From: Apus apus
Lineage: Eukaryota > Chordata > Aves > Apodiformes > Apodidae
Assembly: GCF_020740795.1 (NCBI RefSeq)
Contig: NC_067286.1
Span: 17,798,350 to 17,862,349, forward strand
Direction of reading: 5' to 3'
DNA: 64,000 nucleotides
Shown here: positions 3,561 through 64,000 of the stretch, one piece after another
How positions within the stretch are numbered: position 1 is the first letter of the stretch
How the letters are laid out: every line of letters starts with the position of its first letter
Notes under the pieces: generated by a model
What the model was told of the DNA's origin: nothing
The model's input: the letters and a program-made list of their open reading frames with translations, nothing else
Databases searched by the model: none
Made by a program: the position numbers and the translations under genes

Positions 3561-3565
3561 AATTC

Positions 3566-3573: not shown

Positions 3574-3679
3574 AGGCACCCAAGCTTGAAAAGGTAAGCC
3601 TAGAAAGTGGCAGCAGCAGCACTGCACATTTGGAAAGGAGGAAAGTACTGAACAAAACTCCCCCACTACGGCATGTATC

Positions 3680-3731
3680 ATGTTTCCGATACTAATACTG
3701 CTCATCTTCTGCAGTTTTCTGCAATCTACTG
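3680..3731 (+). CDS. MUC6: MUC6 exon 1: signal peptide
   Basis: Translation starts at ATG 3680 and gives [17 protein letters not shown], a classic hydrophobic signal peptide. The exon ends in phase 1 at a GTAAGT donor (3732). The earlier ATG at 3673 is in another frame and soon stops. This exon is not conserved enough to recognise by similarity; the call rests on the hydrophobic core, the consensus donor, and the phase match to exon 2. Confidence 0.75.
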
Positions 3732-30700: not shown

Positions 30701-33700
30701 TAAGTACAGGTAATATCTGCAATTCAAAATACATCCATATGTTATCCAAGGTAAGTCCCTGAAACTACAGCAATGAGCAGCTGTCCTCCTTCCTACTGCT
30801 GTGTGACAGCTTCTAGAATTAGATAAGTGTTATTGTTCTTGGTTCTATGGGACAATAATGCCCAGTGGTTTCAGTATGGACAGATTCTATCGCAAGGATC
30901 AGCACTCATCTGCCACATTACTGACTAAATGCTGGCAGTTTCAGCTAGTCAGTGGTGTGGTGAAAAAGTTTGTTTGCCTGGGATCCAGTTTCATAAGTGC
31001 ATGCTCCAGACAAACGTTTCTGTTGGTTATCTAGACATAGAAACACAGCAGTATGAGAGGAGTAAAGTTGTAAGAGTACACATGAGAGTGGGAGATGGTA
31101 ATAGAGTTCAAGACTGGAATTATTTTCCCTGTAACTTTTGAATTATTCTTAGGAATATATTAAAACATACTTCTTCTACTATGCTGGCTGAATGTAGATA
31201 TATTATTTCCACAAAATGAAGTTGGACTGCTAGCACACCTAACAGTGAAGATGGAATAATGACAGATATTTTTGTTTATTGTAAAGTTTTACATATGCAT
31301 AAGAAAATAATTCTGAGGGGGTAAAAAAGCCTTGTAAAATAAAATCATGGAACTTAATCCCACTGTCTATGTCGCTGATCAAGATATTAAACAGTACTGG
31401 TCCCAGTACAGACCCCTGAGGAAACCACTCATTAGTGATCTCCATCTGGACTTTGAGCTCTTGACCACTGCTCTTTGGCTACAGTAGTCCTTTCTACTGT
31501 TTTTAAAAACGAGTGCAATGCTTCCCTTTTTCCAGTCTTTGGGGACTTCAGCTAACTGCCATGACTTTTCAAAAATAAGTGGAAATGTCATGACAGTCCA
31601 CAGTAGCACAGCATCTGATCTTCAGCAGTGTGGCACAGAATAAGGAAAATACAGAAACTTGGTAAGTTATGATATCCAGATCAATTTTCTTCCAGAATTT
31701 GACATTTATATTGCGAGATGAAACCTTCAGTATTTCTGGAGAAAATCCTGGCGTACAATATAAGGTGAAAAATAATGCCCTTCACCTGATGTTTGACATT
31801 ATTATCCCAGGAAAATACAACATGACCCTCATCTGGAATAAGCATATGAATTTTTTCATCAAGATCTCCAGAGAATCACAGGTATTATGAAATAACTTCC
31901 TCAGTAAACTGTCCTTCAATTCTGATTGAACTGCACATTTGATGACAGTTGTCTTGACTCTACAATGGCAAAGGTTTTTCAGAGATGCTACTAGCAATTC
32001 ACTCACGTCATTATCTCCAAAACAACATAGATTTTCACTAGAGGCTGATTTTTAAGTGATCATCCTACTACACTTGGGATTTTTTTTAGATAATGCTTGT
32101 ATTTTATACAACTGCATACTTGAATTTGATCTCTAACAATGAAAGTTTACAATTTTATACATTCATCCGCTGATGAACAGAATCTCGTGTGGAAGACACT
32201 AGAATGCATGAGAGAGTATTTGTAGATCACATTCACTACTAAAAACCAGGAAATTGTCAAAAGGGAAGAAACTTATCAAAAGGGAAGGCGAGTATCTGCA
32301 ACTGACTGAACTGACATTGCTGCTTTGATTTAATCTAGGAAACTATATGCGGTTTGTGTGGGAACTATAATGGCAATATGAAGGATGACTTTGAAACTCG
32401 AAGCAAGTATGTGGCCTCAAATGAATTAGAGTTTGTAAATTCTTGGAGAGAGAATCCTCTCTGTGGGGATGTCTACTTTGTAGTGGACCCCTGCAGCAAG
32501 AACCCTTATCGTAAAGCATGGGCAGAAAAGACATGTTCCATCATCAACAGCCAAGTATTTTCTGCCTGTCACAATAAGGTAAGAGTTGATTTGGTCTCCT
32601 TTTTATTTATAGGCATAACCTGTATTCTTCCAAAATGCTCACACTCCAACGCCTGATCTTCATTTCCCAAAAAACATTTTAATAAAATATTTATTAAATG
32701 TTTTATGGCTTTCATTTATGTTAATCGTCATCCTTTCTTGTTTGTACTTCACCAGCCCTTTTGTAAGAACAAAAGGTAAGTATGGCATTGACTACTTAGT
32801 TAAAATTATCAGAGTGAAAAAAAGAATTAAGACATAAGTATCAGAAGTTAAGCAGTCCATTGATGATGCCTGGTATCAGAAGTTAAGCAGTCCATTGATG
32901 ATAACTGATACCGATCAATTCACTGCTTACTCTTTTGAAACCATTTAGCCTTTACTAGAAAATCAAACTTAGAAAAGCCTGAAAACCCTTGTTCTCACCA
33001 GTTATTGACTGGCATTACTTAAGAATATTGCAAGGTTTATCAGAACCAGGCCTTCTGAAGGAAAATCTCTGCATTCAGTAGGTGAAAACAAGGGACCAGT
33101 GTGGATAATGCTGCAGAGCTCATGCGTATCTATGGAAGGCTGACAAACTTGTGCCTGAATGGATGTATGGATTTGGGGGATTTTTTTAGCTGACTAAACA
33201 GAATATATTCAGGACTAGTATGAATTTAGAAATACTTATCTGGCAAAACAGAATCAGTTTGTATTGTTGATGAGGAGACACCTCCGTTCTTCCTATAAAG
33301 AATCCTATGAAGTGGTACTGTAATTGCTTTGATAAGTGTTCAGAGGAAATACTTTTCACTCTCATGTAATGGAACATGTATTGTTTAATCCAGGGAAAAA
33401 CACCTTCTTAGCAAATAGGCACAAAAGAATCCTAGGAAATGTGTTACTTTATTTTCCAATGCAGGTGAACCGTATGCCCTATTATGAAGCCTGTGTTCGA
33501 GACTCTTGTGGTTGTGACATTGGAGGGGACTGTGAATGCATGTGTGATGCCATTGCAGTGTATGCCCTGGCATGCTTAGATAAAGGTATCTGCATTGACT
33601 GGAGGACCCCTGAGTTCTGCCGTAAGTTTCTTTAAGCTCTCTCTAAACAGGTATTATTGTTACTGTGAGTATATCAATATGACAACATATGTAATGGCTT

Positions 33701-39700: not shown

Positions 39701-42700
39701 TCAGTGACATAAACAGTGGGATTAAGTGCACCCTCAGCAAGTTCATGGATGACATCAAGCTGAGTGGTGCAGCTGAGCCACTTGAAGAACAGCATGCCAT
39801 TCAGAGGAACCTGGACAAACTCAAGAACTGGGCACAGGTGAACCTCATGGGGTTCAGCAAGGCCAAGCACAAGGTTCTGCACCTGGGTTGGGACAACCCC
39901 CAGTATCAATTCAGGCTGGGGGATGAAGAGATTGAGAACAGCCTTGTGGAGAAGGAGCTGGGGGTACTAGTGGATGAAAAACCGAACGTGAGCCATCCAT
40001 GCGTGCTTGAAGCCCACAAAAACAACTGTATCCTGGGCTGCATCAAAGAAGCATGAGCCAGCAGGTAGAAGGAGGTAATTTTGTCCTTCTACTCCACTCT
40101 GGTGAGACCCCACCTGTAGTACTGCATCCAGCTCTGCAGTCCTCAGTGCTCCATGAACTAGTTGAAGATATCCCTGTTCATTGCAGGGAGTTGGACTAGA
40201 TGACCTTTAAAGGTCCCTACCAATACAAACTATTTTATGATGTACAAAATCCCACAAAATTTCATCACAGTTCATAGTGGTGTCTGGCCATATAACACTT
40301 TGACCATTTCAGAAGGCCTTCAAGGAAATGTATGACTGAGTCTACCAAAGCCCTACAGCCTGATCCAGGAAAGGAATCTATATTGCACCCATCTTTGTTA
40401 GAAATTTCGCTTATTTCCCTGAAGACTAATGGTATTGGGAAAAAGTTACACAGTTGACTGTCTGAACAATAAAATGTAATTCCATCTCTGCTGGTATGCA
40501 TAAGTATTTATGCCAAATTTGCTTTAAAGTGATTAAGAATTATGTGTAATACTTTTGCATGAACTCCTGTTTAATCTATTCACTCACAAAATAGCAAAGG
40601 ATTAGACAGATAACTTCTCTCAAATGTTTAGGCTAATAGGTAATGTTTTCTAACAGTAGTTACTACTAATAGTTGTTAATATAGTGTTTTCACTTCAAAA
40701 TAATTTTCAGTTTACATAGGTGTATTATAAATACATTGCCATGTGCTATTTTTTATCCTTTGATTTTTAAATTTTTCTTCTTATTCACAACAGTGCAGCC
40801 TAAAGTAACAAGAAGCTCTATCACAAGTACTCTACCAAAAGTACCTAGTATTTCTTCTTCTGCAGCTATTATATCTCCTCAGACTACAAATCCAACAATA
40901 GCCTCAAAAATCACAGCATCACCTCATGTCACAATGAAGTCAACAACTGGTAGGTTTTTAGTGTTACTGTCTAAAATAAATCATGCTGAACCTACTCTAC
41001 ACACAGTTGAGATGGTTGCTCCACTAGGAAAGCATTGCAAGCTCTCTCAACATCCAAGCATAAGACTCCAAAGCATGAAGCAGGCTTCCAGAAGGGAGTT
41101 TTGTAAACCAGAAATGCTCAGACATGCAGATTGACATTATGTAGAAAAAGAAAGGATATAGTCAGTTAAAAATACAACCAAACCACTTGTGTGAATCAGC
41201 TGAGAAACACATCAGAAGTTTTTTTTAAGCAGTGAGTCAGCTCAGCTCCAGTTGGATTTATTATCTCAGCCTCTTTTCCACTGATTATGCAGTCATATCC
41301 AAGGAGCACCCAACCTATTAGCTAATAATATAAGCAGGCTCCAAAGCATAATCACACAAGCTTTGTGCAGCAGCTTTGTCTAGGATTCTGGAGTCCTGCT
41401 CTCAGGAGGATGACTCCTCTAATATAAATTACTTTCTGATTCTATTGTGGAGAGGCATAATAACATGTAGCTTCCCACCAACATGCACTTCAACTAATAG
41501 ACTAGACTAAGGTTATCAGAGAAAGAAGAGTTAAAAAGAGGTCCCACAGGAGCCAAAGCACAACTTCAAAGGCTGCCATTGTGACAAATTTGTGCACTGG
41601 GACAAGGAAAGTCGTATAGTATTATATTATTTAGTTGAAAAGCTGAAACTAGCTGATTTGGAGCATAAGAATAGCCAATGAAATTGTCATTTTGGGAAAG
41701 CCCTTACAGACTTCAGCCAATAAGTGACAAAAAAGCTAACTTCTCTAGAAAAATTATATCAAAAATAATATAATACAGGAAAAAAATACAGAAAATGAGA
41801 ACAAAGAAATATATTTGACAATAGAAAACAAGTAAGAGTAGAGAAAGATTTGGCAAGCTTATAATAACATTAATACAAACATTTGTGAAAAAGGTATCTC
41901 CAGGATATGGGTAGCTACTTCATAATTAATCTATTTTAATTTATTCAATGAATTGATTAGTCACATTATATTATTTACCTTTACTCCAAAAGAACATATG
42001 ACATCAATTTTTACCACACCAAACATGACTACAACCATTACTACCCCTTCCATAACTATCTCTACAAGAAGAACTGTTACTACCAAACCAACGCATACAC
42101 CTGTTACCTCAACTCCTGCTTCAATAGAGATGGAATAAGGTTCACCACACCACCCTTCAAGACCACTATCAAAAAGGAAATTACAACCACCTCAATACCT
42201 ACTCAAACCACCATATCTCAGATCTCAACTTTCAGCAAGCCTAAACAAACAACAGTAGGTAAATACCACTTTTTGATATCTGCCAGGTGAAGCCATCACT
42301 CACAAGACACATGTCAATGTATTCCTTATTAAAACCCCAAACATTCTTACTACTTTCCTTAACATTGCAAATAGATAAGAAAGGACATGAATAACTGAAG
42401 AACTGTGATAAAAATGGAAATTTATGCATCTTGCTAATGGAGAAAGTACATGACATCCAAATATCATCTTAAACCTAACATTTCTATTCAAGGCCATACC
42501 CTACACTTTCTTCAAATTTAGGCAAAATCTCTATGCTTTGAAGCATGTTTTTGAAAATTCACAGATGTGTTCCCCATAGTAATAGTAACAGATTCTCCTG
42601 AAAAGAAATGTTAAAAAAAGGAAATCATCCTTTGGGATGTCAGCTACTCCATATGCCAAAAAGGACAATCTCTGAGTCTGTACGGCCATGGGAATTACTA

Positions 42701-45700
42701 GGTTAGCAACTGACACCAGAGGCTGAGACAGTGTGCAGGGTGAAGTCTATTGTAGTGGGAGGGCAGGTGCATACTCTCTTCCAGTACATGTATCTCCCAC
42801 AAAGTACTTTTGGGTTGCACATATCTTTGTCTTCTTGTGCCAGTACTTACAGCTTCCACTGAGGAAGTATCACAACCCACTTTAACTAGGAACTTTACCA
42901 GCTCCCAACTGTTACTAATATCCATTCTTCCTTACTTTACAGAGAGTGAGGGAACCCAAGAAACCCCTCTGTCCCACCAACTCCCAGTAGGTGAGTAAGA
43001 GGAAGCTGAAAGATATCCTTGGCCTTAGACTCTACTTCACTGACCCCAGCTTTCCTAGGTAATGTTCTTGCCCAGTCTTGAATGCCTTGGAGGGGAGATG
43101 TACACATCCAGAGAGGCTCTTCTTGCCTCAGGAGCTCCAGGAAGAGGAAAGGGGTGCTGAATTGTCAGAGTGCACCCTTCAGGTTCAGTTCTTGCCCCAT
43201 TTTTTTTTTTTATGGGTAGGCATTGGTCCATTTGTCCATCTTGCCCACTTCAACTCAGTAGGGTCAGGTCCTGCTTTTCTTACCCCCATCTCCATCCTGG
43301 TGATTCTGCCTGGGAATTGCCCACTTCCTTTGCCTTCCCCTCTTGCCCTACCATCCTAAATCAACCTGTGCTTTTCTCTATGTAGTTGTCACCCACAGAA
43401 AACCAACAAAGTCACACCTAGTGCAGCATTTAATCACACAGAAGACCACTCCTGCCACATCCACCAGCAGCACCTCTGTCCCGAGAGAGACCAGCCCTGC
43501 CAGCAGCCCAGAAGTCCCGCTGACAAAGATATCTCCAAGCCCCAGCTCTTTACCTACCACCTCAGCCTCATCTGCTTCTTCCTCCTTCTCAACTGTGTCC
43601 TTGACATGGTTGAGACCATCACATCCTGGTAAGGCTCCCTCTGGCCCTTCCTGCTGCTCAGCCTGCTCCTTCCAGCTCCTATCATTCTCTTCTAAGCAGC
43701 ATGTCCCACAGAAGATACAGTTTTGGTATTTTTTCTCAACTCCCACTGGTCTTGCCATGGGACTCCTGGGACCCAGGCAGGTCCTGAGACTGGGCTGCAC
43801 ATGACCCTGACTGCATCCTCCTCCCATGTCACTTCAGGGGTTTGGCTCTGGAACACAAGCCTTTATCAGGATACAGACATGCAAGTTCCTGCCCTGTAAC
43901 TAGCAGTCAGAAACAAGCTAGAACACTCTCTCTCCCCTTACAGCAGTGCCCTGAGAATACACAGTGGGGGTAACAGAAGTCAGTGAAACTGGAAACTTGT
44001 TCCCAGCTTACACCTCAGGACAGTTTTGGGTGAGAAGCAGAACATAAGGAATACTCTCCATCCAGTGGATGCCCAAGCCCTGCAGCACCCATGACAAGTG
44101 ATGGCCAACATATGCCATCTCTTTGGCCTGTGCTGACCCTGCATGCAAAAGAGCCACCACTGGAGGGTGGGCAAGAAGGTGTACACTCAACTCCAGGATA
44201 AAGTACTCCCACTTACACCCATCAGAATCTGCATGCCTGGGTTGTCTTGCCTACTTTGAGGAGATGCCACAATATGCTTTGCCTAGAATACTTGCCAAGA
44301 CTCAACCATTCTTTTATCTCATCCCTTTCTTTGTAGCAAGAGAGCCAACCAGAGCTAAGACTCCATTTAGTAAAATAGTAACCAGTGGGTGCTCTGGTAA
44401 GGAGAGAGCTAAGAGTCATGCATGGTTAATGACTGTCCCTTCAGTAGCCTCAGATCGCCTTTGGATCCTATCCAGCACAGGCTGCAGCAGGCAAACTATA
44501 TACTATCTGTCAACCAATAGAAACACATACAAAAGTAGAGATACCACTTCCCCTCTCAAGAGCTACAGAAGGAAGAAGACAGGCATAAATTCCTAAAGGA
44601 AATCCTTCAGAGCCATCACAAGCCTGCAATTCTCTGAAGAAGGAGGATGGGATAAGACATGTTTGGGGTCATGGACCCTCCCATTGATCTTTGGAAAAAA
44701 ACACCACAGAATATGTAGAAACCAGTCCTGACTTCCTTGACTGTACACTACAACTATCGTTCTATGCCAGAAATATGCACATCACCCACCTTCTTATCTT
44801 ACATGGTCACCCTCAACCAATATGTGCTTTACTCCCAACAGCCTACACCCGCAAAATGACAACTGTGCCACACATTGTCCCACCTCTTACCACACAGAAG
44901 ACCACCACTACCACCATCACCAGCAGCACCTCCAAGACCTCCGTTTCCAGAGAGGCCAGCTCTGCTAGCAGCACCCAAGTCCCCCTGGCAACAACATCTC
45001 CAAGTTCCAGCTCTACGCCTGCTCTCAGCACCCTGCTCAGCACCCCTCTGCCACCTGCCACCACCTCCAGAGTCTTCTCCACATTGGCCCCAACCACCAG
45101 CCTCAAGCCCACCCCTACAACCCCAAGGCCCAAGCTGTCTTCCTTCATGTCCAGTGCTCCAACAGAGTTGCCTGCAGCCGAGTCCTCCACACTCTCCACT
45201 GCCAAAACCAGCCCACTGCCTTCGCCTGCTTCTTCTCTCTCTTCAACTGCGTCCTCAACATGGCTGAGCTCCTCACTTCCAAGTAAGGCTCCCTCCTACC
45301 CTTCCCAACACCCTGCCTGCTCTTCCCAGCTTTCTCCCTTCCTTTTTAGCAGTGCACTCCACTTAGGCTGTTCTTCTCATAGCTCCTTGATCCCACTTTC
45401 TTGGCATCAGTATGTTGCTGGGGCCTGTGTTTGGTATGGCCCTTGGGAACAGGGTTCTCCCATGGAGCCTGGCATGCTGGACTGGGAGGGGGCACATGCT
45501 ACACTGTGCCTGTTCCTTCAAGGGAAACACCCAGATCTTGAGGGGTCATCTTCCAGGGAGAGAAAGGCAGAGGGTATTCACTTATGCCTTAGAGGGAATC
45601 CTTCAGGTGGTCTTCTTGTCCCCCCTTTTTTGAGGAAGATACCAGATGGGAAGATGAGGCCAGGAGCCAGACACCACTCATCCTTCCCACCAAGCAAGAC

Positions 45701-48700
45701 TCTGTGCAGCACAGTGCTGCCTCTCCTGCATGTGTCCCCTCCTCCAGGATGTTTCCCACCTCTTTTGCCTTCCCAGCTTGTCTCCATCCTCACCAACATG
45801 TGCTTTCCTCCCAACAGCCTACACCCACAAAATGACAACTGTGCCACACATTGTGCCGCCTCTTACCACACAGAAGACCACTGCTACCAGCAGCACCTCC
45901 AAGACCTCCGTTTCCAGAGAGGCCAGCTCTGCTAGCAGCACCCAAGTCCCCCTGGCAACAACATCTCCAAGTTCCAGCTCTACGCCTGCTCTCAGCACCC
46001 TGCTCAGCACCCCTCTGCCACCTGCCACCACCTCCAGAGTCTTCTCCACATTGGCCCCAACCACCAGCCTCAAGCCCACCCCTACAACCCCAAGGCCCAA
46101 GCTGTCTTCCTTCATGTCCAGTGCTCCAACAGAGTTGCCTGCAGCCGAGTCCTCCACACTCTCCACTGCCAAAACCAGCCCATTGCCTTCATCTGCTTCT
46201 GCTCCTTCCTCAACTGTGTCTTCAACATGGCTGAGCTCCTCACTTCCAAGTAAGGCTCCCTCCTACCTTTCCCAACACCCTGCCTGCTCTTCCCAGCTTT
46301 CACCCTTCCTTTTTAGCAGCGCACTCCACTTAGGCTGTTCTTCTCATAGCTCCTTGATCCCACTTTCTTGGCATCAGTATGTTGCTGGGGCCTGTGTTTG
46401 GTATGGCCCTTGGGAACAGGGTTCTCCCATGGAGCCTGGCATGCTGGACTGGGAGGGGGCACATGCTACACTGTGCCTGTTCCTTCAAGGGAAACACCCA
46501 GATCTTGAGGGGTCATCTTCCAGGGAGAGAAAGGCAGAGGGTATTCACTTATGCCTTAGAGGGAATCCTTCAGGTGGTCTTCTTGTCCCCCCTTTTTTGA
46601 GGAAGATACCAGATGGGAAGATGAGGCCAGGAGCCAGACACCACTCATCCTTCCCACCAAGCAAGACTCTGTGCAGCACAGTGCTGCCTCTCCTGCATGT
46701 GTCCCCTCCTTCAGGATGTTTCCCACCTCTTTTGCCTTCCCAGCTTGTCTCCATCCTCACCAACATGTGCTTTCCTCCCAACAGCCTACACCCACAAAAT
46801 GACAACTGTGCCACACATTGTGCCGCCTCTTACCACACAGAAGACCACTGCTACCAGCAGCACCTCCAAGACCTCCGTTTCCAGAGAGGCCAGCTCTGCT
46901 AGCAGCACCCAAGTCCCCCTGGCAACAACATCTCCAAGTTCCAGCTCTACGCCTGCTCTCAGCACCCTGCTCAGCACCCCTCTGCCACCTGCCACCACCT
47001 CCAGAGTCTTCTCCACATTGGCCCCAACCACCAGCCTCAAGTCCACCCCTACAACCCCAAGGCCCAAGCTGTCTTCCTTCATGTCCAGTGCTCCAACAGA
47101 GTTGCTGGCAGCCGAGTCCTCCACACTCTCCACTGCCAAAACCAGCCCACTGCCTTCGTCTGCTTCTGCTCCCTCCTCAACTGTGTCTTCAACATGGCTG
47201 AGCTCCTCAGTCCCGAGTAAGACTCCCTCCTACCCTTCCCAACACCCTGCCTGCTCTTCCCAGCTTTCTCCCTTCCTTTCTTCATTTCTCCATCCTTTCA
47301 TTCCTTCCATGAACAATTCACTGCTTGCACGTTTTTTCATCTTGGACATCCCTTTCTGCTCTCTTTGTCGAGCCTGGGACGTGGTTCATTCCTGGCCTGT
47401 GTACTGCCCTTGGCTGCCATGTACCTCATTTCTGTTCCTAATCAGTTGCCTGGTGCTGTGCTTTACATGTGTCCAAGCAAGTTTTGATCGCACACAAATG
47501 CTTTATATCTGTTACTGAGGAGTGCCAGCACAGCATCCAGGCTTTCTCCCTCCTCCTGCCTGGTAGCTGGCACGGTTGGGCAAGAGGTTGACTGAGGATA
47601 CAGTCAGGATAACTGACCCAAAATGAGTGACCAAGGAGAGACTCCATATTACAGGCCACCTGATCAAGGAGAACCTACTTATGAAACATTCTTATTCCAA
47701 CTCCAGAAGGCATCCAGCTCACAGGCTCTTATCCTGCTGGGGGATTTCAACCACCTCGACATCTGCTGGGAAAGTAACACGGCAAGCTGTAGGAAATCCA
47801 GAAGACTACTGGAGTGCCTTGAGGTCAAATTCTTAAGACAGGAAATAGATGGCCCTACCCAAGGGGATGTGATGCTGGACCTGATGGTCACCAATGCATG
47901 CGAGCTCATCAGGGATGTCAAGATTCTAGTTAAAATGGTCCCTGTGCACTGCAGGGGGTTCTGAACTAGAAGACCCTTGAAGGTCCCTTACAACCCCATA
48001 CATTCTATGATTCTATGACAAGATCCCTTCTCAGTCTCCTCTCCTCTGGCCTGAACAGAGCCAGGTCTCTCAGCCTTTTCTCCTAAGAGAGAGGCTCTAG
48101 TCCCCTACTCATCCTCATAGCACTCTGCTGGACTCTTTCCAGGAGCTGTCTTTTTTGTACTGGGGAGTCCAGAACTGGCCACAGTACTACAGCTGTGGCC
48201 TCACTAGGGCAGAGTAGAGGGAGAGAAGTAGCCATTTCTCAGAGACTGGTTGGGCATTGGCCACCTGTGAGAAGATGCCTTTGTAACTCATGGGTGGTTT
48301 TTGCTTTGTTTTTCCTTTAGTATCTTCACTTCTGGAACCAGTCTGTATCTGGATGTTTGGTTTTTTTCTTTTGCACTTCTTATTCTTTTCCTATTCCTGC
48401 TGAGGGGCAGCGAGTGGCTATGTTGGCTCTTAGCATCCAGGCAGGGTCAACCCACTGTGAACTGGCATACACACTGGTCCCAGCTGAATTTAAGAAGGAT
48501 GGGGACACTCAGGGAAGGAGCCAGAGAACCACTCCTCCCTCTTGCCCAGCAAGACTCAGCGAGATACAGGGCTGCTTTTCTCGCCTGAGGCCCTAGTGCA
48601 GGGCTTGTTTTCACCTCCTTTACCTTGTTCTCTTGTCCTGCTATCCTCAGTTGATTTGTGCTTTCCTTCCAGCAGCCTACACCCACAAAATGACAACTGT

Positions 48701-51700
48701 GCCACACATTGTGCCGCCTCTTACCATACAGAAGACCACTGCCATGTTCTCTGCCAGCAGCACCTCCAAGATGTCTGTCTCCAGAGAGGTCAGCTCTGCT
48801 AGCAGCACCCAGGTCCCTCTGACAAGGATGTTTCCAAGTCCCAGCTCTACACCTGCCCCCAGCACCCTGCTCAGCACCCAGCTGCCACCTACTGCCACTT
48901 CTACGTTCTCTTCTGCTTTGGCCGCAACCATCAGCCCGATGCCTACACCAGTGGCCCTCACTACTTCAACATTTAGCACTGCTGAGAGTACCACATATTT
49001 TTCCTCTGAAAATACATTTACTCCACATGGCAAAACATCTTCATTAGTAGCTCCTGCAAGTATTTCTATTAAGTCCACTCCGGTTTTGATCCCTACTGTT
49101 TTATCTACAACTACTTTTGCTCCCAGTGTTACTACTACTGCTTCTACAAAGTCAGCTGAAAGGACTGCTTTGCAAACAACATTAGCCACGACCCACACTA
49201 CATCACCTCCTTCTTTCACCTCTGTAGTTTCAACATCCTTGTCTTCTGTTGTACCATTAACAGTACCACAAGGTAAAGTATACCCATATCACTTCTGGTA
49301 CCATGGGGGTTTTTTTACCACATTTTTCTTTAATGAATGTATGAATACATATATTACTTTTTTTTTTTTTTTTGCTATGATACCATTTGTATGTTTTGGC
49401 TCCATCTTTTGTGTGTCATTTCTGCAGTAGCTGTCTGAAACCTTTGATTTCGTAACAACAGGTTCCCTGCTATATACTAATGCAAACATGAAAAAGTTCA
49501 AGTTAAGGAGTCTGACAGGTTGCGTATCAGAAGAGTCACAGAATCACTGGGTTTTTAATCCTAAAATCTTAGTTAAACACTGTAGGAGAAATAGCCTGTA
49601 AAAGCTATCTCTTGACTTACCCTGCAGTCCTCCTGATAGCTTTTATATGCTCTTTCTGCATACTTGAGCATTTGTTGGTATTTCTTCTGTGGGATAGTGT
49701 TTTCCCAGATTTGAAGGTACAGTGATGTTCTTGGGCTGCTGAGCGTATTTAAAACCAAGTATGTTTTGGCTGAGGGAATACCACATTCTACAATTTCTGC
49801 AGAACTTTATGTAAAGAGAAGCACACAAAGCAACATCCTCACTACTGGTTTTAAACTGATCTGTCCTATTTTAGGATCTACAGTACAGGAGTCAGGAACA
49901 CTGGTGCAGATGAACAAGAACCATAGAATGGTTTGGGCTGGAAGGGACCTTAAAGGTCATCTAGTTCCAACTGCCTGCCATGGGCAGGAACCCCTTCCAC
50001 TAGACCAGGTTGCTCAAAGCCCCATCCAACCTGGCCTTGAACATTTCCAGGGAGGGGGAATCCACAACGTCTGGGGCAACCTGTTCAAGAGTCTCACCAC
50101 CCTCATAGTGAAGAAACAGTAAGGCAGGCAGTTTTTATTCAACACTTCCTAGGATACCGATTAACTGTTCTACAAATAAAGCAGAATGACATGGGAACTC
50201 AATGTTAAAGCTGTGAATGAAAGGCAGATTCCTCGTGTGGTTCTTGTTGGTATGTTCATTTGTTTTAACCACTGTTTGAGGACCCAGAAAAGAGTTAGCA
50301 TTTCACTTTCAGCTATTTTGCACTTTTGCATTTTTTCTTTGGGAGAGTTCAACATACAAGAGAAACTATCTGGAAAGTATACTTTAGCCATATCATAATG
50401 CATTTTTCCTTGTTGCCTTTTCCACTATCATATGCTACTGTCTAATTTTCTTGGTGTTTTCCTAAATTCCTAAAGAAAGTACAACCTCACCACCAGTAAG
50501 TTAGAACCTTCACTTGCCTTATCATTTTCAAGAATTAGGAGGGATGTGCAGCATCCTAATAGGCCTGCCCTTTTCTATCCTGCTTAATAATGATATTGTA
50601 AGTATTTGCATTTTATCTTTGAAACGTGTTCAAATGTTTTCCACAGAACTATATGCTATTTCCTTAGTTGTTGTGAATCATCACACAAAGTCCTCCATTC
50701 TGTCCTTACAATCAGACCAACTGAACCAGAAACTTAGCTTTAACAGCAAAAAGAACAAGCAAAGCAGTACACCACAGGTAACTCATCACCTACTGTGCTT
50801 ACTCCAGAAGACTGATTTACACAAAGGGTCACAAATAGTCATCTAAGGAAAATGTATTTGTGGCTAATTAATACTCTCAAACAGTGATATAAGAAACAAT
50901 ATATGAGTGGGAATAGTCACCTGTAGCAGAACCTTTCATCCTAAGTGTTTTCACTGTCAATCTTGTCAGAAGAGTGGAGTTTGTACAGGTCAGTCAGCTC
51001 CTTCACAAGGCATGGCAGAATTAATTACTTGCAGAACAAGCAACTGAATACAGTATCTGTCCTTCCTCCCACTGTTAAACAGTAATGCAGGACCAAAGAG
51101 GCTGGTTTCAGGATTTATTTAACAGAAAGGACTCAAATTGACTGACTGCATGAGCATCAGGAAATTATAGTGTGACCCAAGGAGATGGGATTCTTTCTAC
51201 TGCCCCACTCCCTTTCACTGTTTTTCAAGCATCCTCATAATTTTAACCTCACAGAATGGAACTATCATAAGCAGGATTTTTTCCCAGTATACTAATGGCT
51301 TTGGTGCCTGCTTTAAGTTTTATTCACTTTTTTTTTTTTTCCCCTAAGGGAAGTGCTACAGAACAGTATCTTCCCAACTATACCATTACTAGGTTTAGTC
51401 CTTGCAGTTAACAGGAAGTATCTCCCAGTATTTATTTCATGAGTTCACAAAGTTGCAAACAAGTTCTTCTCCTTTATCTGCACATTTTTCAGCCCTTAAC
51501 TGAGCAATTCTGCTACTTTTCAGTCTTGCAGAATATTAACAACACCTTTCAGTCCAGAAAGAAAACTTAAATATGGGCCTGGCTTTGAGCTCTTAATTTA
51601 TGATGCACAGGTATAATACCTAAGTCTACTGTCCAGTTATTAGTTGCCTTATTTTCAAATAACTTCTCAAATTCCTACTACAGGATTAACTGAGCCTTCC

Positions 51701-54405
51701 ACACAACAATGTTCAGGTTTCCTTCATAACCCTTCAAGCAGGGAACCTGAATGTGCTCAGAAGAGCACTGTACAAGAGGTACATAAGTCTGTGCAGTATT
51801 CAACATCTTTGTTCTTCTTTATATAAACTTCAAATACAGTCTTTAAACTTGCTGGAAAACCTGAATTTTCAATCATTTTTCGCTTCATAAAGTGCTTAGT
51901 GTCTTGCTTCAAGTCAGAAAAACATGCAAGATCAATATATATAATAATTACCTGCTATGTAGAATTATACATTCTATCTACTAAGGAAAGACAGACATCG
52001 GTCAGTTTAAGTTGTGAACTTCTGGCTACCTATAAATAAATCCTCAAAATGAGTAAATCATTTTTCAAATAAGTAAAATCTATTATGAAGTCTCTGAACC
52101 AGAAATAACTCCATCAGAATTAGCCAGCTGGTTACTCTATTTGCATCTTTGTGTTCTCATCAGTGGTTTTTTCCTGCTGGACTGAATTCACAGTACATTC
52201 TTAACAAGACTTTTTTTGCTCATTTGCAATTCCAGCAAGTTGCATTAAACTAGTTGTCCTCCAGGGTAACTCTCATGCATCTTCATTGCCTGGTTTAAAA
52301 CTTTATGCTGCTGTGTTACTCACATTTGACTTGCTTCATGTAATAGGAAAGGCTTTGCATTAAACCAACTGGGGAGGCTTCTCATCACTTAAGAAACCAA
52401 GACAAATTTCTGCTATAAATTTTTTCTTTTTACATTTGACAGAGCATTGTAGAGAACTCACATATGAAGAAAAAATAACTTACAAAGGCTGTTCTACAAA
52501 TGTCACTTTAAGCAGATGTGAAGGATCATGTCCATCTTCATCAAAGTAAGATAGCCAAGAAACTGTATTAATATGAAAGTTTTTTCTTATTTGTGATCTG
52601 TAACTAGCAGTGTTTGTTAACTACCACTCTATAAATTCAGGGAAAAAAATGCAGTTGGTATCTACCCAGCAATACAATGTTGCAGTATAAGCCAGCTAAC
52701 TAGAAACAAGTTAATAAGGCCACACAGTACATTGGTATACAATTTGAAAAAGGAATGTTGTCTCACTTCAAGTCTTTTTTTAAAAGGAAAAAAAAAAAAA
52801 AGACAAAAAAAAAAGACCAGTGCTGAACTTTTGGGGGGCTTTTGTTGTTGTTTTTTTAATTTATTTATTTTTTTAATATATAAAAGTTCAGTTAGACTAC
52901 AAACACCTGTTTTCAAAACATCCAAGATAGCAAAATAAGAATTTCTCTCATTGTTTCCTTATGTTCTCCTAATAGTGTAATTCAGGGCTATTTTATAGTT
53001 CCAAGTCGGTTGTCTCAAGTACATGCAGTTCTGATTGCTCTTTAGAAAACTATGCAGACAGGGAATCAAGACTTCGATTAAACTTACTGCAGGAGTATTA
53101 CAGAGTTCACAGTTCTTCGGGAAAAAATTAAAACTGTTATATTCCCAACAACCCAATCAAATACAATGTTCAAGAACAGGATACCAATGAAGGGGTTTGC
53201 TTTTGCAAAAACTAATTTAAATTAAACCTGAATCTAAATGCTGTCCCCCCTCAAATTGACTTCAGCATTTTGAAAATGGAATGACTCACTTCACATCTTG
53301 AGTTTTATGTAAAGTCTGAAAAAAGATTTTGAGAACTACTAAGGTTCATCATAATCACTCAGAAAGTTGTGCTTAAACCAAGCAGACTTTTCTCCCTTTT
53401 GTAGAGATTTTTACAAAAATATTTTTTTCCATAACTCTCTTGTTCCTACAGATGAATTCTAGCCTAAGTTTATACAACTTCACACTGACAAAAGAAAAAA
53501 AAAATTGGAGCAAGTCCAGTAGCCAGTTGGCTGGACATGGTCAGAAAAGCAACAGTATAACAGATCAACATTACTATCAGAAGATGATCTAAATCTCACT
53601 TGCTTATGCAAGCTATAATTTCACCAACCTGTGCTTTATTCCTGTTAATTCAGCAAGACATGTATGTCTACTACTACTTTGATAACTGACCTCACAGCCC
53701 AGAATTGACTATGCAGGCATCAACTTAGATTCTGGCACTAACAGTTAAGAGGAGGAAATGGATTTTCCTTCCTCCACGAACTGTGCAAAAGGATCACATG
53801 CAATTTAGCATCTTTGTTAACAGACCATACCAGGGACCTTTTGCAATTAATTCTAAGTAGTCCAGTGCACAATATTTAAAAAGTTTAAATATATACTTTA
53901 TCATTTTCAAAAGTGCAAAAGCAGAATGGGGAAAACAAATCCTATTAGTGTCCTAGTGAGGTCTAAGGCCTATCATGTGTAAGCCCTTTGCAAACTGCGT
54001 CTTAAGAAGGCAGAAGCTCAGTACACCTGAACGTCTGCAGCACTCATGAGAATTGCTGCACTGTCTGTACTTCTGCAGCTGACGGAACCAGTAAACTCTG
54101 AAGGGTTGTGCTCCTTCCTCTAAATGTTCCACCATCAGGAAAAAAACAAACCTTCAAATACTTGAAAAGCTGTAAGTCTAAAATGCTGTATACAAATCCT
54201 AACTGATCTACTCTCTCTTCCAAACAGGCTGAATGTTGAGAAGATGACAGTCAACACACTATGCAGCTGCTGTAGGCCACTTCAGCTTCTTAAGAAGGAA
54301 TTCCAACTACCATGCCAAGATCCAGACAAACCTAGGAAAAGGCTTGTCACAGAAATAACTATATTTAGTGGCTGTGTTTGTAACTTCGAAAATTGCATAT
54401 ATTAG
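3680..54405 (+). CDS. MUC6: MUC6, secreted gel-forming mucin (avian beta-ovomucin type), 39 coding exons
   Basis: This is a secreted gel-forming mucin that polymerises through disulfide bonds in the secretory pathway. The order is signal peptide, three VWD-C8-TIL assemblies (D1, D2, D'D3), a PTS domain, then a terminal cystine knot. The absence of a D4 region and VWC domains separates MUC6 from MUC2, MUC5AC and MUC5B, and N-terminal similarity to mammalian MUC6 is high from exon 3 onward. Exons 1-20: 3680-3731, 8647-8709, 11495-11735, 13271-13397, 14564-14651, 15800-15909, 17681-17888, 20057-20179, 21169-21289, 21791-21929, 22092-22196, 22541-22613, 22859-22996, 23899-24060, 24641-24735, 25393-25525, 26417-26666, 27694-27746, 27852-27961, 28725-28876. 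Exons 21-39: 29589-29730, 30209-30319, 31696-31881, 32339-32578, 33465-33621, 34366-34509, 34987-35049, 39268-39315, 40794-40949, 41993-42258, 42853-42990, 43386-43628, 44337-44396, 44842-45282, 45818-46249, 46785-47216, 48676-49272, 52443-52545, 54228-54405. Phases agree at every junction except inside exon 30, which is one base short. An intact frame would encode about 2,226 residues. Confidence 0.93.
3732..11494. other. MUC6 introns 1 and 2
   Basis: Two large introns (3732-8646 and 8710-11494) at the 5' end, where regulatory elements often lie. The DNA is AT-rich. I see a short AAAT repeat near 8565-8583 and otherwise no transposon, RNA gene or exon I can support. Confidence 0.55.
8647..8709 (+). 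CDS. MUC6: MUC6 exon 2: N-terminal linker
   Basis: A pyrimidine-rich acceptor (CTTCACAG) and a GTAAGT donor bound 63 bases that enter and leave in phase 1. They encode about 21 residues ([10 protein letters not shown] and so on) between the signal peptide and D1. It joins in frame to exons 1 and 3. Human MUC6 also has a poorly conserved linker here. The call rests on splice sites and phase only. Confidence 0.65.
11495..14651 (+). CDS. MUC6: MUC6 exons 3-5: D1 von Willebrand factor D domain
   Basis: Exons 11495-11735, 13271-13397 and 14564-14651 encode residues about 39-190. The start reads [13 protein letters not shown], followed by the [11 protein letters not shown] strand region, both nearly identical in style to mammalian MUC6. 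Exon 5 holds the CGMCGNYDG motif, with the CxxC pair linked in VWF-type proteins to disulfide multimer formation and the Asn/Asp-rich loop typical of VWD calcium sites. Splice phases are 1, 2, 0 and 1 in order. Confidence 0.95.
12738..12794 (+). mobile_element. CR1 3'-end remnant
   Basis: A short stretch resembles the last bases of CR1 (a GGACAACTTCAGAAAGTCCC-like block followed by TTCTATGATTGTAT). It lies in MUC6 intron 3 and is badly degraded. Confidence 0.5.
15800..17888 (+). CDS. MUC6: MUC6 exons 6-7: first C8 domain
   Basis: Exons 15800-15909 and 17681-17888 encode residues about 191-296. They carry the spacer after VWD (KMDDPSEIC) and a C8 fold with regularly spaced cysteines. Exon 7 contains the conserved LSEYSRQC segment also found in mammalian MUC6. 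Acceptors follow TTTACAG and TTATTTAG; donors are GTAAGA and GTAAGT. Confidence 0.93.
16538..16790 (-). mobile_element. CR1 fragment
   Basis: A - strand CR1 3' region in MUC6 intron 6, starting with ACAGAATCACAGAA and the GATCATCTAGTCCAACCCC block. It is diverged and 5'-truncated. Confidence 0.7.
20057..21289 (+). CDS. MUC6: MUC6 exons 8-9: first TIL domain
   Basis: Exons 20057-20179 and 21169-21289 encode residues about 297-377, a trypsin-inhibitor-like cysteine-rich module. It contains [14 protein letters not shown] and GCFCPEG, then [14 protein letters not shown] at the start of the E-type linker. Exon 9 ends in phase 2 within a Cys codon that exon 10 completes. Confidence 0.93.
20808..20915. 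repeat. A/C-rich low-complexity tract
   Basis: A-rich DNA with AAACAAAC-like units in MUC6 intron 8. No retrotransposon body is visible beside it. Confidence 0.7.
21791..24060 (+). CDS. MUC6: MUC6 exons 10-14: D2 von Willebrand factor D domain
   Basis: Exons 21791-21929, 22092-22196, 22541-22613, 22859-22996 and 23899-24060 encode residues about 378-583. The start of D2 reads [13 protein letters not shown]. Exon 14 reads [16 protein letters not shown], so the first cysteine of the CxxC pair seen in D1 and D3 is absent here; human MUC6 lacks it too. The exon ends within the conserved spacer ([17 protein letters not shown]) that leads to the second C8. Confidence 0.95.
24641..25525 (+). CDS. 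MUC6: MUC6 exons 15-16: second C8 domain
   Basis: Exons 24641-24735 and 25393-25525 encode residues about 584-659. They include [15 protein letters not shown], joined to [17 protein letters not shown], both hallmarks of the MUC6 second C8. The intron between them (24736-25392) is largely a CR1 element whose nearer edge lies about 150 bp from the exon 16 acceptor. Confidence 0.93.
24831..25240 (-). mobile_element. CR1 fragment
   Basis: A 5'-truncated - strand CR1 in MUC6 intron 15, with the AGATCATCTAGTCCAAACCC block and the CTGGGCAGCCTGTTCCAGTG block well preserved. It fills most of the intron between exons 15 and 16. Confidence 0.9.
26417..27746 (+). CDS. MUC6: MUC6 exons 17-18: second TIL domain and E linker
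   Basis: Exons 26417-26666 and 27694-27746 encode residues about 660-760. The TIL module is seen in [19 protein letters not shown] and [11 protein letters not shown], and the E segment in [10 protein letters not shown]. Exon 17 ends in phase 2 inside a Cys codon; exon 18 continues with [10 protein letters not shown]. Confidence 0.93.
27852..28876 (+). CDS. MUC6: MUC6 exons 19-20: D' module (TIL')
   Basis: Exons 27852-27961 and 28725-28876 encode residues about 761-847. Exon 19 contains [20 protein letters not shown] and exon 20 [17 protein letters not shown], matching the D' region of MUC6. Exon 19 ends in phase 0 at a GTGAGT donor; exon 20 ends in phase 2 within a cysteine codon. Confidence 0.93.
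29589..32578 (+). CDS. MUC6: MUC6 exons 21-24: D3 von Willebrand factor D domain
   Basis: Exons 29589-29730, 30209-30319, 31696-31881 and 32339-32578 encode residues about 848-1074; all four end in phase 0. The domain opens with [19 protein letters not shown]. Exon 24 carries [18 protein letters not shown], an intact CGLC pair of the kind linked to multimer formation, and runs into the third C8 ([17 protein letters not shown]). Similarity to mammalian MUC6 is highest here. Confidence 0.95.
31345..31620 (-). mobile_element. CR1 reverse transcriptase fragment
   Basis: A - strand piece of CR1 ORF2 in MUC6 intron 22. Translated on the - strand it shows [14 protein letters not shown] and [14 protein letters not shown], typical of the CR1 reverse transcriptase, with frame breaks between them. 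It has no 3' end. Confidence 0.75.
32839..32902 (+). repeat. 35-base tandem duplication
   Basis: The segment starting TATCAGAAGTTAAGCAGTCC occurs twice, 35 bases apart, in MUC6 intron 24. The copies are identical over about 29 bases, so the event looks recent. Confidence 0.85.
33465..35049 (+). CDS. MUC6: MUC6 exons 25-27: third C8 end, TIL-like module and D3 tail
   Basis: Exons 33465-33621, 34366-34509 and 34987-35049 encode residues about 1075-1195. Exon 25 finishes C8 ([31 protein letters not shown]). Exon 26 is a cysteine-poor TIL-like stretch ending [11 protein letters not shown]. Exon 27 is a short cysteine-rich piece ([13 protein letters not shown]) at the boundary with the PTS domain. 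The order is as in human MUC6. Confidence 0.93.
35050..39267. other. MUC6 intron 27, mostly CR1 insertion
   Basis: This 4.2 kb intron separates the D3 tail from the PTS exons. Most of it (35240-38480) is a single - strand CR1 copy. The remainder is AT-rich DNA with no exon I can support. Confidence 0.8.
35240..38480 (-). mobile_element. CR1 element, about 3.2 kb, with broken ORF2
   Basis: A long - strand CR1 in MUC6 intron 27, with its 3' end at 35240. ORF2 is split into several frames. From its 5' side there are endonuclease pieces (near 37690-37900), a linker, [14 protein letters not shown] (36283-36495), and the reverse transcriptase core with the catalytic motif FADDTKL (35838-36242). 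Stops and frameshifts make it inactive. It is the largest mobile element in the window. Confidence 0.92.
39268..40949 (+). CDS. MUC6: MUC6 exons 28-29: start of PTS domain
   Basis: Exons 39268-39315 (48 bases) and 40794-40949 (156 bases) are both phase 1-1 and encode residues about 1196-1263. The composition switches from cysteine-rich to Ser/Thr/Pro-rich ([22 protein letters not shown]), the substrate for mucin-type O-glycosylation. Both have consensus acceptors and GT donors. A + strand CR1 fragment lies in the intron between them. Confidence 0.85.
39640..40243 (+). mobile_element. CR1 fragment, 5'-truncated
   Basis: A + strand CR1 in MUC6 intron 28, with a 147-codon open frame (39613-40056) covering part of the reverse transcriptase. 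The catalytic block reads FMDDIKL, where a related copy in this window has FADDTKL. The 3' end lies near 40243. It is inactive. Confidence 0.88.
41993..42258 (+). CDS. MUC6: MUC6 exon 30: PTS exon with internal frameshift
   Basis: The exon enters in phase 1 after CCAAAAG and leaves in phase 1 at GTAAAT. Its length is 266, one base short of a multiple of three, whereas every other PTS exon is a multiple of three. The upstream frame reads [19 protein letters not shown] and reaches TAA at 42136-42138. Downstream, PTS-type coding resumes in a different frame ([18 protein letters not shown]). The change of frame lies between about 42119 and 42138. As written, the product would end after about 1,311 residues, with no cystine knot. 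A single-base deletion or assembly error fits best; skipping the exon would also keep the frame. Confidence 0.7.
42853..42990 (+). CDS. MUC6: MUC6 exon 31: PTS exon
   Basis: Phase 1-1, 138 bases, between TACTTACAG and GTGAGT. It encodes [17 protein letters not shown], then a hydrophobic stretch, then [11 protein letters not shown]. The hydrophobic part coincides with a second pyrimidine-rich acceptor that would start the exon at 42943 in the same frame, so the true exon may be the last 48 bases only. Confidence 0.6.
43386..43628 (+). CDS. MUC6: MUC6 exon 32: PTS exon, divergent relative of the exon 34-37 family
   Basis: Phase 1-1, 243 bases, between CTATGTAG and GTAAGG. The protein ([30 protein letters not shown]) is recognisably homologous to exons 34-37, and the first 60 or so bases of the following intron resemble the introns after exons 34 and 35. 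It therefore looks like an older member of the same exon-plus-intron duplication family. Confidence 0.8.
44337..44396 (+). CDS. MUC6: MUC6 exon 33 (candidate): short PTS exon
   Basis: Sixty bases, phase 1-1, between TTTGTAG and GTAAGG, encoding about 20 residues with Thr/Ser and a cysteine (KIVTSGCSG). Good splice sites and a frame that fits both neighbours support it, but the composition is only weakly mucin-like. It could be an unused exon. Confidence 0.45.
44842..45282 (+). CDS. MUC6: MUC6 exon 34: PTS repeat exon, copy 1
   Basis: Phase 1-1, 441 bases, acceptor CCCAACAG, donor GTAAGG. It encodes about 147 residues rich in Ser, Thr and Pro. It differs from copies 2 and 3 chiefly by nine extra bases (three codons) in the TTTTIT stretch near 44910. 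The open frame continues into the intron but would not join exon 35 in its mucin frame. Confidence 0.88.
45818..46249 (+). CDS. MUC6: MUC6 exon 35: PTS repeat exon, copy 2
   Basis: Phase 1-1, 432 bases, acceptor CCCAACAG, donor GTAAGG. By eye it is nearly identical to exons 34 and 36, apart from the nine-base indel near the start relative to copy 1. The high identity extends into the following 535-base intron. Confidence 0.88.
46785..47216 (+). CDS. MUC6: MUC6 exon 36: PTS repeat exon, copy 3
   Basis: Phase 1-1, 432 bases, acceptor CCCAACAG, donor GTAAGA. A few substitutions separate it from copy 2, including CCC to TCC and CCT to CTG codon changes near 47040 and 47105, and a changed 3' edge. 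Identity to copies 1 and 2 stops about 60 bases into the next intron (near 47277). Confidence 0.88.
47600..48018 (+). mobile_element. CR1 fragment with internal deletion
   Basis: The + strand endonuclease region ([27 protein letters not shown]) is joined near 47940 directly to a CR1 3' tail ending CATTCTATGATTCTATGA. Everything between, including the reverse transcriptase, is missing. It lies in MUC6 intron 36. Confidence 0.85.
48019..48240 (-). mobile_element. CR1 fragment, inverted next to the previous copy
   Basis: A - strand CR1 segment begins immediately where the preceding + strand copy ends, with blocks such as CCAGGAGCTGTC and GTGGCCTCACTAGGGCAGAG. It lacks the extreme 3' end, so the pair probably reflects insertion of one into the other or a rearrangement. 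Confidence 0.75.
48676..49272 (+). CDS. MUC6: MUC6 exon 37: last PTS exon
   Basis: Phase 1-1, 597 bases, the longest coding exon. The first third is homologous to exons 34-36 ([16 protein letters not shown]); the rest diverges but stays Ser/Thr/Pro-rich ([16 protein letters not shown]). The acceptor is a CAGCAG tandem, so the start may be 48673 or 48676. It ends at GTAAAG in phase 1, which joins directly to exon 38 and makes a Glu codon before His-Cys. Confidence 0.85.
49273..52442. other. MUC6 intron 37
   Basis: This 3.2 kb intron holds a - strand CR1 fragment (49921-50122). It also has two short acceptor-led stretches, from 49875 and from 51684, that open in the right phase; neither has a convincing phase-compatible donor. 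I treat it as one intron, because exon 37 joins exon 38 in frame. Confidence 0.6.
49921..50122 (-). mobile_element. CR1 3'-end fragment
   Basis: A well-preserved - strand CR1 3' end in MUC6 intron 37 (CCATAGAATGG, AAGGGACCTTAAAGGTCATC, ACTAGACCAGGTTGC). It is among the least diverged CR1 ends in the window. Confidence 0.9.
52443..52545 (+). CDS. MUC6: MUC6 exon 38: cystine knot (CTCK), first half
   Basis: Acceptor TTTGACAG, donor GTAAGA; enters in phase 1, leaves in phase 2. It encodes [11 protein letters not shown], then [17 protein letters not shown], the first strands of the C-terminal cystine knot, including the GC..NVT..RCEG.C signature of mucin and VWF knots. CTCK domains dimerise mucin chains in the endoplasmic reticulum. 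Confidence 0.93.
52546..54227. other. MUC6 intron 38
   Basis: A 1.7 kb AT-rich intron splitting the cystine-knot domain. It has A- and T-rich tracts (52785-52880) but no transposon or exon that I can recognise. Confidence 0.6.
54228..54405 (+). CDS. MUC6: MUC6 exon 39: cystine knot second half and stop
   Basis: The acceptor CCAAACAG completes a Lys codon, and the exon continues [17 protein letters not shown] and ends CVCNFENC-Ile-Tyr before TAG at 54403. The CSCC motif and the final CxC..C are the expected closing cysteines of the knot. The arrangement matches human MUC6, where the protein also ends directly after CTCK. Confidence 0.95.
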
Positions 54406-54616
54406 CTAGACAGACCTCCAGATGGCCCGAGATACCAATATTTTTTATTTTTATTTTTTTTTTAATTAAACACTGATCACAACTTAGTACTTTCACAGTG
54501 ACTGCTCATTGCTGGGAGTTCTCTTGTATTGATTATATAGGATAGCCTTGCAGTGAGGCTTCCTGAGCAGCAACCTGGAGTGTCAATGAAGTTAACTGAT
54601 AAATTATCCCTGTACA

Positions 54617-54690
54617 GGAGGGGGTTGAGGGGGGCAGAGGGTGCAGGGGGGCGAAGGGAAAGGAAAGGGCAGGGTGGGTATTGGGAGGGA
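54617..54690 (+). other. G-rich tract, potential G-quadruplex
   Basis: At least eight runs of three or more G, separated by loops of 1-7 bases, lie on the MUC6 sense strand, so both the DNA and the 3' UTR RNA could fold into a G-quadruplex. The surroundings are AT-rich, so the tract stands out sharply. Confidence 0.75.
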
Positions 54691-54784
54691 AAACCCTGTC
54701 AGAGACTGTGCGGCCTTGCCCAAGGTGATAATTTGACTAGAGGCTAAGAACTGGCGTATGCACTGTACAATAACGTGACTTTCA

Positions 54785-54790
54785 AATAAA
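54785..54790 (+). terminator. MUC6: Polyadenylation signal of MUC6
   Basis: A perfect AATAAA (in TTCAAATAAAGTAG) lies 380 bases after the stop. It is the first canonical signal I see downstream of the coding end on the + strand. Confidence 0.7.
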
Positions 54791-54805
54791 GTAGAAGGAA
54801 CTGAA

Positions 54806-58403: not shown

Positions 58404-60405
58404 TTAAAACTGTTCTGACAGCAATTCACATAATCTCTGAGATACAGCTTCTTTACTTGTTCGTAGTGTGAGCCTGTACATCTGAAAAAGAACATAAAGC
58501 ATTATTTACTTCTGAAACAGTTTGGCATTAAGTGAATGCACAGTCAACTACTGAAAACTACTAGTTAACTCTTACTTGATTTTGTAGGAAAAAGATGTCA
58601 ACTTAAAACATTCAGAGGCAGCTACCCACTAAGTAACACAGCTTTTTCAAACCATGGGCTAGAGTGGATCTTCAAGCCCCTGTTCAGAGTTACCATTGGT
58701 CTAGTATTTCTAGGCTTTAACAGCAAGGCATTGTCCACATTTTTTCTTTAATAAATAAATAAATCTAGTGGAAAAGTCCAGAGACTCTCTACCACCACTC
58801 AGTTCAGGAAACAGGAGACTTACCACTCAAAACTTTAGTCTTCAGTTAACTTTAATAAAGCCTCTATCAAAATGCTTGAGGAAGAATATTCTTAATATTG
58901 TGTTTGTTTGCTCATGCCTTCTCTTTTGACCTATCATTCTTTTAGTAATTTAAAATGGCAAAGGGAATTATACTTAATCTTGTCTCAATGTACACAAGAC
59001 AGAAACACAGTTTCCAACATTCAAGAGAAGATGAGACTCCATGGACAGTCTGGAGTAATACAGCCATCTCTTCCAATAGGAAAGAGAACTGCTATTAAGA
59101 AGCAGCTTACAAAATTAGGCCAGGACTGGCTGCTACAATTTAATTTGTTGTTGGACTGTGCAGCCACATAGTTAGCTACTGCAATACTGATTTTAAATAA
59201 AATATATATACTGGCAATTAGTTCAAACAAGAACTTGTATACTTTAACAGATACCTGTGCCTGGAGGTTGGGTTCAAGGCGAAGCAAGCATCCAATCTGA
59301 GTCGTTTTTGTATGTATGATACCAGCACCAACAAAGTTAGCAGGATTGGGATCTACCTCCTCAAGAAGGGCTGATCCAAAGCCAATTATCTATGACATAA
59401 ACCCAGAAGACTTAGGTGTGGGGACAGCAGGACACCAATATCAAGTTTATCCAAGCAAAGCCATCAACAACTAGCAAAAAAGTAGTAGACTAATTTTTAG
59501 TTGGAAGTATTCAAGACACTAAAGAATTATGCAATACCAATTTAACAACAAAAAATTTTTGAAGCAACAGTAATGCTGACAGTGCCCTGTTCCTGAAAAA
59601 AGGTTCCTCTTGAAAACCGAGAACTAAAACAGATTAAGTAAGTCTTTCCAGTTTTTGATAAAGCCATTCCTGACTTACACAAGTCTCTTCTGTTTTGCCT
59701 AAGGCAGCCAGTTCTATAAAAAGTCACTTGTTTTCATTTCTAACTAGTAACTCTAGTATAAATAAAGGCTTGAAGTATCTTTCAGTTTTAAGCCCTGAAT
59801 TTCTCTTCTCTTAGATAGCTTCAAGCTGCTATTGAAGACAACATCTAAATTCAAGCCACACTGAGAAACAGTCCATTCAACCCAGCACTGCCACGGGTCT
59901 GAGGTCTGTTACACAACATCAGCTTACATTTTAACAGGATGATCCAACTGCCATTTAAACCAAGTTGAACAAATTTTGCTTATACCACTACAAATTAAAA
60001 ATACCACAACACCACCCACCTTTGCTTTTGTGATCTCTGCATCCATCGGGTGTTTTGCTTTAAAGATATTCTGTACTTCTTGTTTTGGACTGCAAGAAAA
60101 GGAAGATGAATACACAGTGTAACACATATACTATATGTTCAATAGCAACATATTGGGAAGTTTGTAACTCACAGGATTAAGTATGTGATGGGGCACCGCC
60201 CCAGCTACTAACACAAATACACCCTTCTTCTTCCCTTGGCCAACCACAAGGGGCTCAGGCCCAAGCCCAAGCCCAGACAAGGTCTTACTTGCTCAGTTGC
60301 TTCCAGCGCTGGAAAAAGTCTTGAGAAGACATCTCTGTTGGCTGGAAAAATTTATTCAGTGTGATGGGTAATTTTACTGAAAGATTTTGAAATGTTCCGC
60401 CATAC
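58404..60405 (-). CDS. AP2A2: AP2A2 exons: appendage platform subdomain and stop
   Basis: Exons 60289-60405, 60020-60089, 59255-59389 and 58404-58481 encode the platform, which binds DPF/W-type motifs of endocytic accessory proteins. The FFQRWKQL motif with the key Trp (Trp840 in mouse alpha-C) is in exon 60289-60405. The last exon ends [12 protein letters not shown]. All donors are GT and all acceptors AG. Confidence 0.95.
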
Positions 60406-63806: not shown

Positions 63807-64000
63807 CTAGTTCAGGCAGCACAAAAGGAAGAAAGGCAGTAGCAACAGAGATAGCAGGAGTTAGTAAAGACAGCTTAGTGCTTAGTTATTTCTTTTACCT
63901 CCTTCCTCAAAAATGGCACTGCTGAGTTTAATGCATGAAAATTTATTAGCTGCCCTAGCTCAGTACACCTAGAAAGGTTTTAGGCATTAGGCAATGTTTT

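Follow-up and report, generated by a model that had tools for sequence, protein, structure and literature searches.

Near-identical introns point to recent duplication or exchange within a PTS exon array of a bird MUC6 gene

How does a mucin gene come to carry successive PTS exons that are almost the same not only in their coding sequence but also in the introns between them? The question is raised by a stretch of 64,000 nucleotides from Apus apus (the window, to which all coordinates refer; contig NC_067286.1, positions 17,798,350 to 17,862,349 of the forward strand), in which five related exons, E0 to E4, lie on the plus strand, with the middle three near-identical and separated by two near-identical introns. 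The array data are a single assembled sequence from one bird. The three central exons are E1 (44842..45282, 441 bp, 147 codons, phase 1-1), E2 (45818..46249) and E3 (46785..47216), the last two with 432 bp and 144 codons each; their borders are placed by splice sites called by eye, and E1 also by frame and composition. Their lengths are all divisible by 3, and they are homologous, symmetric predicted exons with one PTS unit each.

Intron 1 (45283..45817, GT-AG) and intron 2 (46250..46784) are equal in length at 535 bp; 4 substitutions, and not a single indel, set them apart, so that the count of about four differences in an earlier note on this DNA was right. The periods of 976 and 967 bp given there are exact, and the offsets of 967 and 1934 bp top the exact 24-mer matches in the whole window; the two spacings differ by 9 bp because E1 has an in-frame length difference of that size. 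In a self-BLAST the copies align at 97.1% identity across 1505 bp (E = 0), far beyond chance, and the copies have exact stretches of 257 to 390 bp in common. The homology of the array begins near 44808 and stops near 47279, that is, outside the exons: the head of intron 3 (47217..47279) is identical to intron 2 at 60 of 63 positions, and then the similarity ends. The triplication of an exon plus its intron that had been proposed is thus present as three near-identical exons but just two full near-identical introns.

The gene itself is, as judged from sequence, a bird orthologue of MUC6 (beta-ovomucin), a call based on its domains, PTS exons, cystine knot, a tail-to-tail AP2A2 neighbor and matches to chicken MUC6 primers. 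The N-terminal exons (11512..33620, plus strand) carry three VWD starts, three C8 and two TIL domains in a D1-D2-D3 pattern; these VWD, C8 and TIL matches (Pfam) are partial, lie on the plus strand from 11.5 to 33.6 kb, as in a gel-forming mucin, and include two single-exon VWD matches just under the Pfam cut-off. The D3 piece matches Mucin-2, FCGBP, Mucin-5AC, Mucin-5B and VWF chains in PDB. PTS exons span 40.8 to 49.3 kb, among them a small upstream exon of 52 codons (40794..40949, plus strand), and frame, composition and domains agree with the earlier placement of the array within a mucin gene. Two 3' exons (52443..52545 and, with the stop codon, 54228..54405, both on the plus strand) form a cystine knot when joined (Pfam DAN, 7.1e-6; Cys_knot, 0.0076, below cut-off), with weak PDB matches to bursicon first and then to VWF and norrin. 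Pfam detects no VWC, CysD or VWD in the plus frames of 48600-58601, and no CysD is seen in 41002-48599, as judged from the translated frames and, by Pfam, from one E2 translation. This agrees with the arrangement of MUC6, in which the PTS region lacks CysD and leads to a cystine knot with no more VWD or VWC. Pfam covered the plus frames of 1-8003, where it gave nothing, of 11000-41001 and of 48600-58601, and the minus frames of 54001-64000; the PDB search covered one frame each of 1-12000 (plus) and 54001-64000 (minus).

Beyond the mucin, and tail-to-tail with it, lie alpha-adaptin 3' exons (59252..61974, minus strand; Pfam Alpha_adaptin_C, Alpha_adaptinC2 below cut-off). One of them is identical at 45 of 46 residues to a PDB alpha-2 chain; the assignment to AP2A2 is made against PDB chains, among which the best matches are alpha-2 wherever an isoform is named, with AP2A1 left out of the comparison. 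AP2A2 tail-to-tail beside MUC6 is also the human arrangement. The qPCR primers for chicken MUC6, with a 105-bp cDNA amplicon (PMC6440466), have one match each (23/24 and 18/20, together 41/44 bases), where none is expected by chance. The amplicon after splicing is 105 bp, as in chicken, with a genomic span of 991 bp against 1287 bp in chicken; the sequence comparison with chicken MUC6 covers these 44 bases only. MUC19 was first considered (window GC 38%, no CysD or D4 seen) and was dropped on account of the AP2A2 neighbor and the chicken MUC6 primers.

Since the near-identity of the copies is also found in the introns, recent duplication or exchange, not selection on the protein, explains it, much as the earlier note had argued. 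Introns 1 and 2 differ at 4/535 sites (0.75%, 95% CI 0.2-1.9%), and silent divergence in the exons is higher, at 5-7%: 6/121.5 silent sites between E2 and E3 (p = 0.004 against the introns) and 8/121.7 between E1 and E2 (p = 0.0003). The excess arises because the differences are clustered. Between E1 and E2, the 14 substitutions and the 9 bp are confined to clusters at exon positions 10-66 and 366-404, and along the copy the differences number 8/34 in the flank, 5/66 in the first exon sites, 0/299, 9/39 and 4/563 (exon end plus intron). The core without differences (0/299) departs from the remaining exon sites (14/133) with p = 4e-8 for segments picked post hoc, as are all the segment boundaries in these mosaic tests. 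Among the 26 differences are identical runs of 299 and 390 bp, whose joint length was reached in 0 of 100,000 random placements. The array therefore gives no support to a simple triplication: the outer flanks differ and are older, and E1 and E2 form a mosaic with a 299-bp identical core.

E2 and E3, each taken with its preceding intron, have 13 differences over 967 bp, and these are unevenly placed (longest run, p = 0.016), which a single clean duplication would not lead one to expect and which counts against the reading preferred below. Over whole exons, E2 and E3 differ at 9/432 sites compared with 4/535 in the introns (p = 0.09), and if E2 is split at position 404, E3-like before and E1-like after, the two divergences agree, with 6/404 exon sites against 4/535 (p = 0.34). 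One CT-rich patch at 46183-46221 (E2 positions 366-404) has 9 variable sites in 39 bp among E1 to E3, and may reflect either conversion or a locally raised rate of change.

The array is flanked by E0 and E4, which are 74-82% identical to the repeated exon over the aligned parts. E0 (43386..43628, plus strand, 81 codons) is an older and internally shorter relative, aligned in two pieces at 74% and 82%, and E4 (48676..49272, plus strand, 199 codons) is an older relative of which the first 274 bp are homologous (82%), followed by a different PTS tail. This second half of E4 (48950-49272) is PTS-coding without a match to the second half of the repeated exon, as if E4 were two different exons joined by an old exchange. 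The intron edges are related as well: the head of intron 2 resembles the intron after E0 (71% identity in 72 columns), and its tail resembles that of intron 3 (69% in 180 columns); the last 178 bp of intron 3 (47217..48675) are the older relative. Intron 3 also has a CR1-type 3' end motif at 48002. As both flanking exons are related to the central ones and have related intron edges, the newest unit is the most recent stage in a longer history.

When E0 and E4 are used to polarize the changes, E1 alone carries those at positions 10, 38, 41 and 65 and E3 alone that at 258, and the 9-bp gap, whose bases are present in both outgroup exons, is a deletion common to E2 and E3. This outgroup is sound only to about position 265, beyond which E0 is gapped and E4 unrelated. 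Position 404 seems to be shared and derived in E2 and E3, with the end of E0 read by eye. At positions 426, 428 and 431, E1 equals E2 and E3 differs, but E0, again by eye, carries the E1/E2 state at 426 and 428, so this agreement looks ancestral and gives no support to a hybrid origin of E2.

E2 has its start and the 9-bp deletion in common with E3, and its full downstream intron in common with E1. We consider it probable (roughly 0.6) that in this MUC6 array an unequal crossing-over between two older neighbors added a 967-bp unit, and that gene conversion acted as well. The starting state would have been E1 and E3 adjacent to each other with a single 535-bp intron in between. If E3 of one chromatid paired with E1 of the other, the product would be E1-intron-E2-intron-E3, in which E2 is a hybrid with its start from E3 and its end and following intron from E1; the switch point would lie in the exon between positions 404 and 426. 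Conversion over some 300 bp would also have homogenized the core of E1 with E2. The stretches of 257 to 390 bp in which the copies agree exactly would be the substrate for such exchange. Shared derived states give the hybrid thin support, so that the case for it comes mainly from the 9-bp deletion, from position 404 and from the way in which the introns are distributed, and conversion alone could yield a similar mosaic.

Three other explanations of the array have to be weighed against crossing-over with conversion. The real bird might have two exons and one intron, with two haplotypes, or one repeat twice, assembled in tandem. Ordinary heterozygosity in birds spans 0.75%, so the intron difference is within its range, and a misjoin within the core shared by E1 and E3 would make a hybrid E2 of the kind that we see. 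Against such an artefact, E2 is unlike both E1 and E3 at positions 366, 374 and 389, every copy has states of its own, and the array is free of frame-breaking indels; none of this is decisive, as heterozygous sites would look the same. We regard an assembly artefact as unlikely, though it is the main doubt about the array.

We give little credence to two ordinary tandem duplications of exon plus intron, without exchange between the older copies and with outer flanks altered later by insertions or deletions. They would account for near-identical units lying head-to-tail, and the CR1-type end motif inside intron 3 suits an altered flank, but they leave unexplained why 13 of the 100 sites in the start of E1 and its flank are unlike E2 when the next 299 are identical, and the excess of silent exon divergence over intron divergence in both exon pairs is unlike duplication at a single age. 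Finally, an old array held similar by selection on protein or splicing is hardly credible: it fits exons that remain open and symmetric, but not introns that are the most similar part of the array, nor flanking exons E0 and E4 that have drifted so far. The avian neutral rate is near 1.9e-9 per site per year, and under this rate the intron divergence would correspond to about 2 million years (0.5-5), an estimate that may be too young because conversion makes an array look younger than its true age.

The array also bears on the protein. E0 to E4 are each a multiple of 3 in length and have the same phase, and therefore gain, loss or skipping of an exon preserves the frame. The step of 144 residues that had been predicted agrees with what is found, one unit being 144 residues with the frame kept. 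The E2 unit contains 67 Ser/Thr, 20 Pro and no Cys in these 144 residues, and every extra unit would make the mucin 144 residues longer, with about 67 more Ser/Thr and an unchanged frame. Copy number may plausibly be polymorphic among individuals. We suggest, tentatively and as something we would not yet expect to hold, that in this bird the length of beta-ovomucin varies in 144-residue steps through unequal exchange of exon-plus-intron cassettes, that alleles with different cassette numbers segregate, and that in-frame skipping tunes the gel. If this were true, the number of sugar-bearing cassettes would tune the gel properties of egg white or mucus. The five coding indels among 12 breeds reported for chicken MUC6 (PMC4136736, in the part consulted) speak neither for nor against a polymorphic array.

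PTS repeats that extend over several exons are already known from chicken MUC13 and MUC2, and uneven exchange between copies is a known route of mucin length change. Where tandem arrays undergo unequal crossing-over and gene conversion, the inner copies are homogenized, the outer ones diverge and length changes stepwise, and the array described here shares these features with tandem arrays generally. Chicken MUC2 resembles it as a bird gel-forming mucin with PTS cassettes over many exons (32-44 or 32-45) and repeats in the genomic DNA around them, which defeated PCR, but differs in having ten 69-residue cassettes in three blocks split by CysD domains (PMC3549977, relevant sections), compared with units of 144-147 residues, one per exon and without Cys, in the Apus array. 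Chicken MUC13 likewise has one PTS repeat per exon with near-identical encoded sequences, but it is a transmembrane mucin with 20-residue repeats, and the part of the report examined does not mention intron identity (PMC1552070). In the orthologous human gene, the 169-residue repeats of MUC6 exon 31 vary in number between individuals and sit in one exon, in contrast to the separate exon per unit found here (PMC6269512, sections consulted); human mucin arrays are also the subject of PMC13345508, as far as its available part indicates. A MUC6 orthologue with exon-sized repeats thus combines features known from chicken MUC13, chicken MUC2 and human MUC6, and it sets a bird many-exon array against a human one-exon array in the same gene. 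No bird MUC6 exon array or copy number was described in a title or the opening of an abstract among the best literature matches listed, a search for which subscription papers were mostly outside the scope. In the portion considered of a paper on mapping egg-albumen QTL, MUC6 is only named in a list of albumen genes (PMC3847062).

In birds MUC6 is a gene of egg white and of gut mucus. Its product is the beta-subunit of ovomucin, and the gel of egg white is ascribed to this subunit and one other (PMC1552070). An array of exons that are young, in frame and interchangeable would be a concrete length variant to relate to albumen thickness and mucus properties, and it is a clear case in which intron identity tells recent exchange apart from selection on protein.

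Some further observations concern the introns and the region upstream. Reading of the 535-bp intron as coding sequence was rejected, as its splice sites are usable and its length is not divisible by 3. Intron 1 (45283-45817) has no stop in the frame that continues from its exon, a frame open in 14 of 3000 dinucleotide shuffles (37 of 3000 for any frame), and the list of open reading frames gives the same for intron 2 (46250-46784); translation of either intron, if retained, would run through and then shift frame. Upstream of the PTS exons, an intron contains a reverse-transcriptase fragment at 39658-39895 (Pfam RVT_1, below cut-off). At 41993-42258 a short PTS-coding segment measures 266 bp between its likely splice sites, a length not divisible by 3, and changes frame mid-way; it may be an exon that was disrupted, or reflect an indel error or an exon modelled wrongly.
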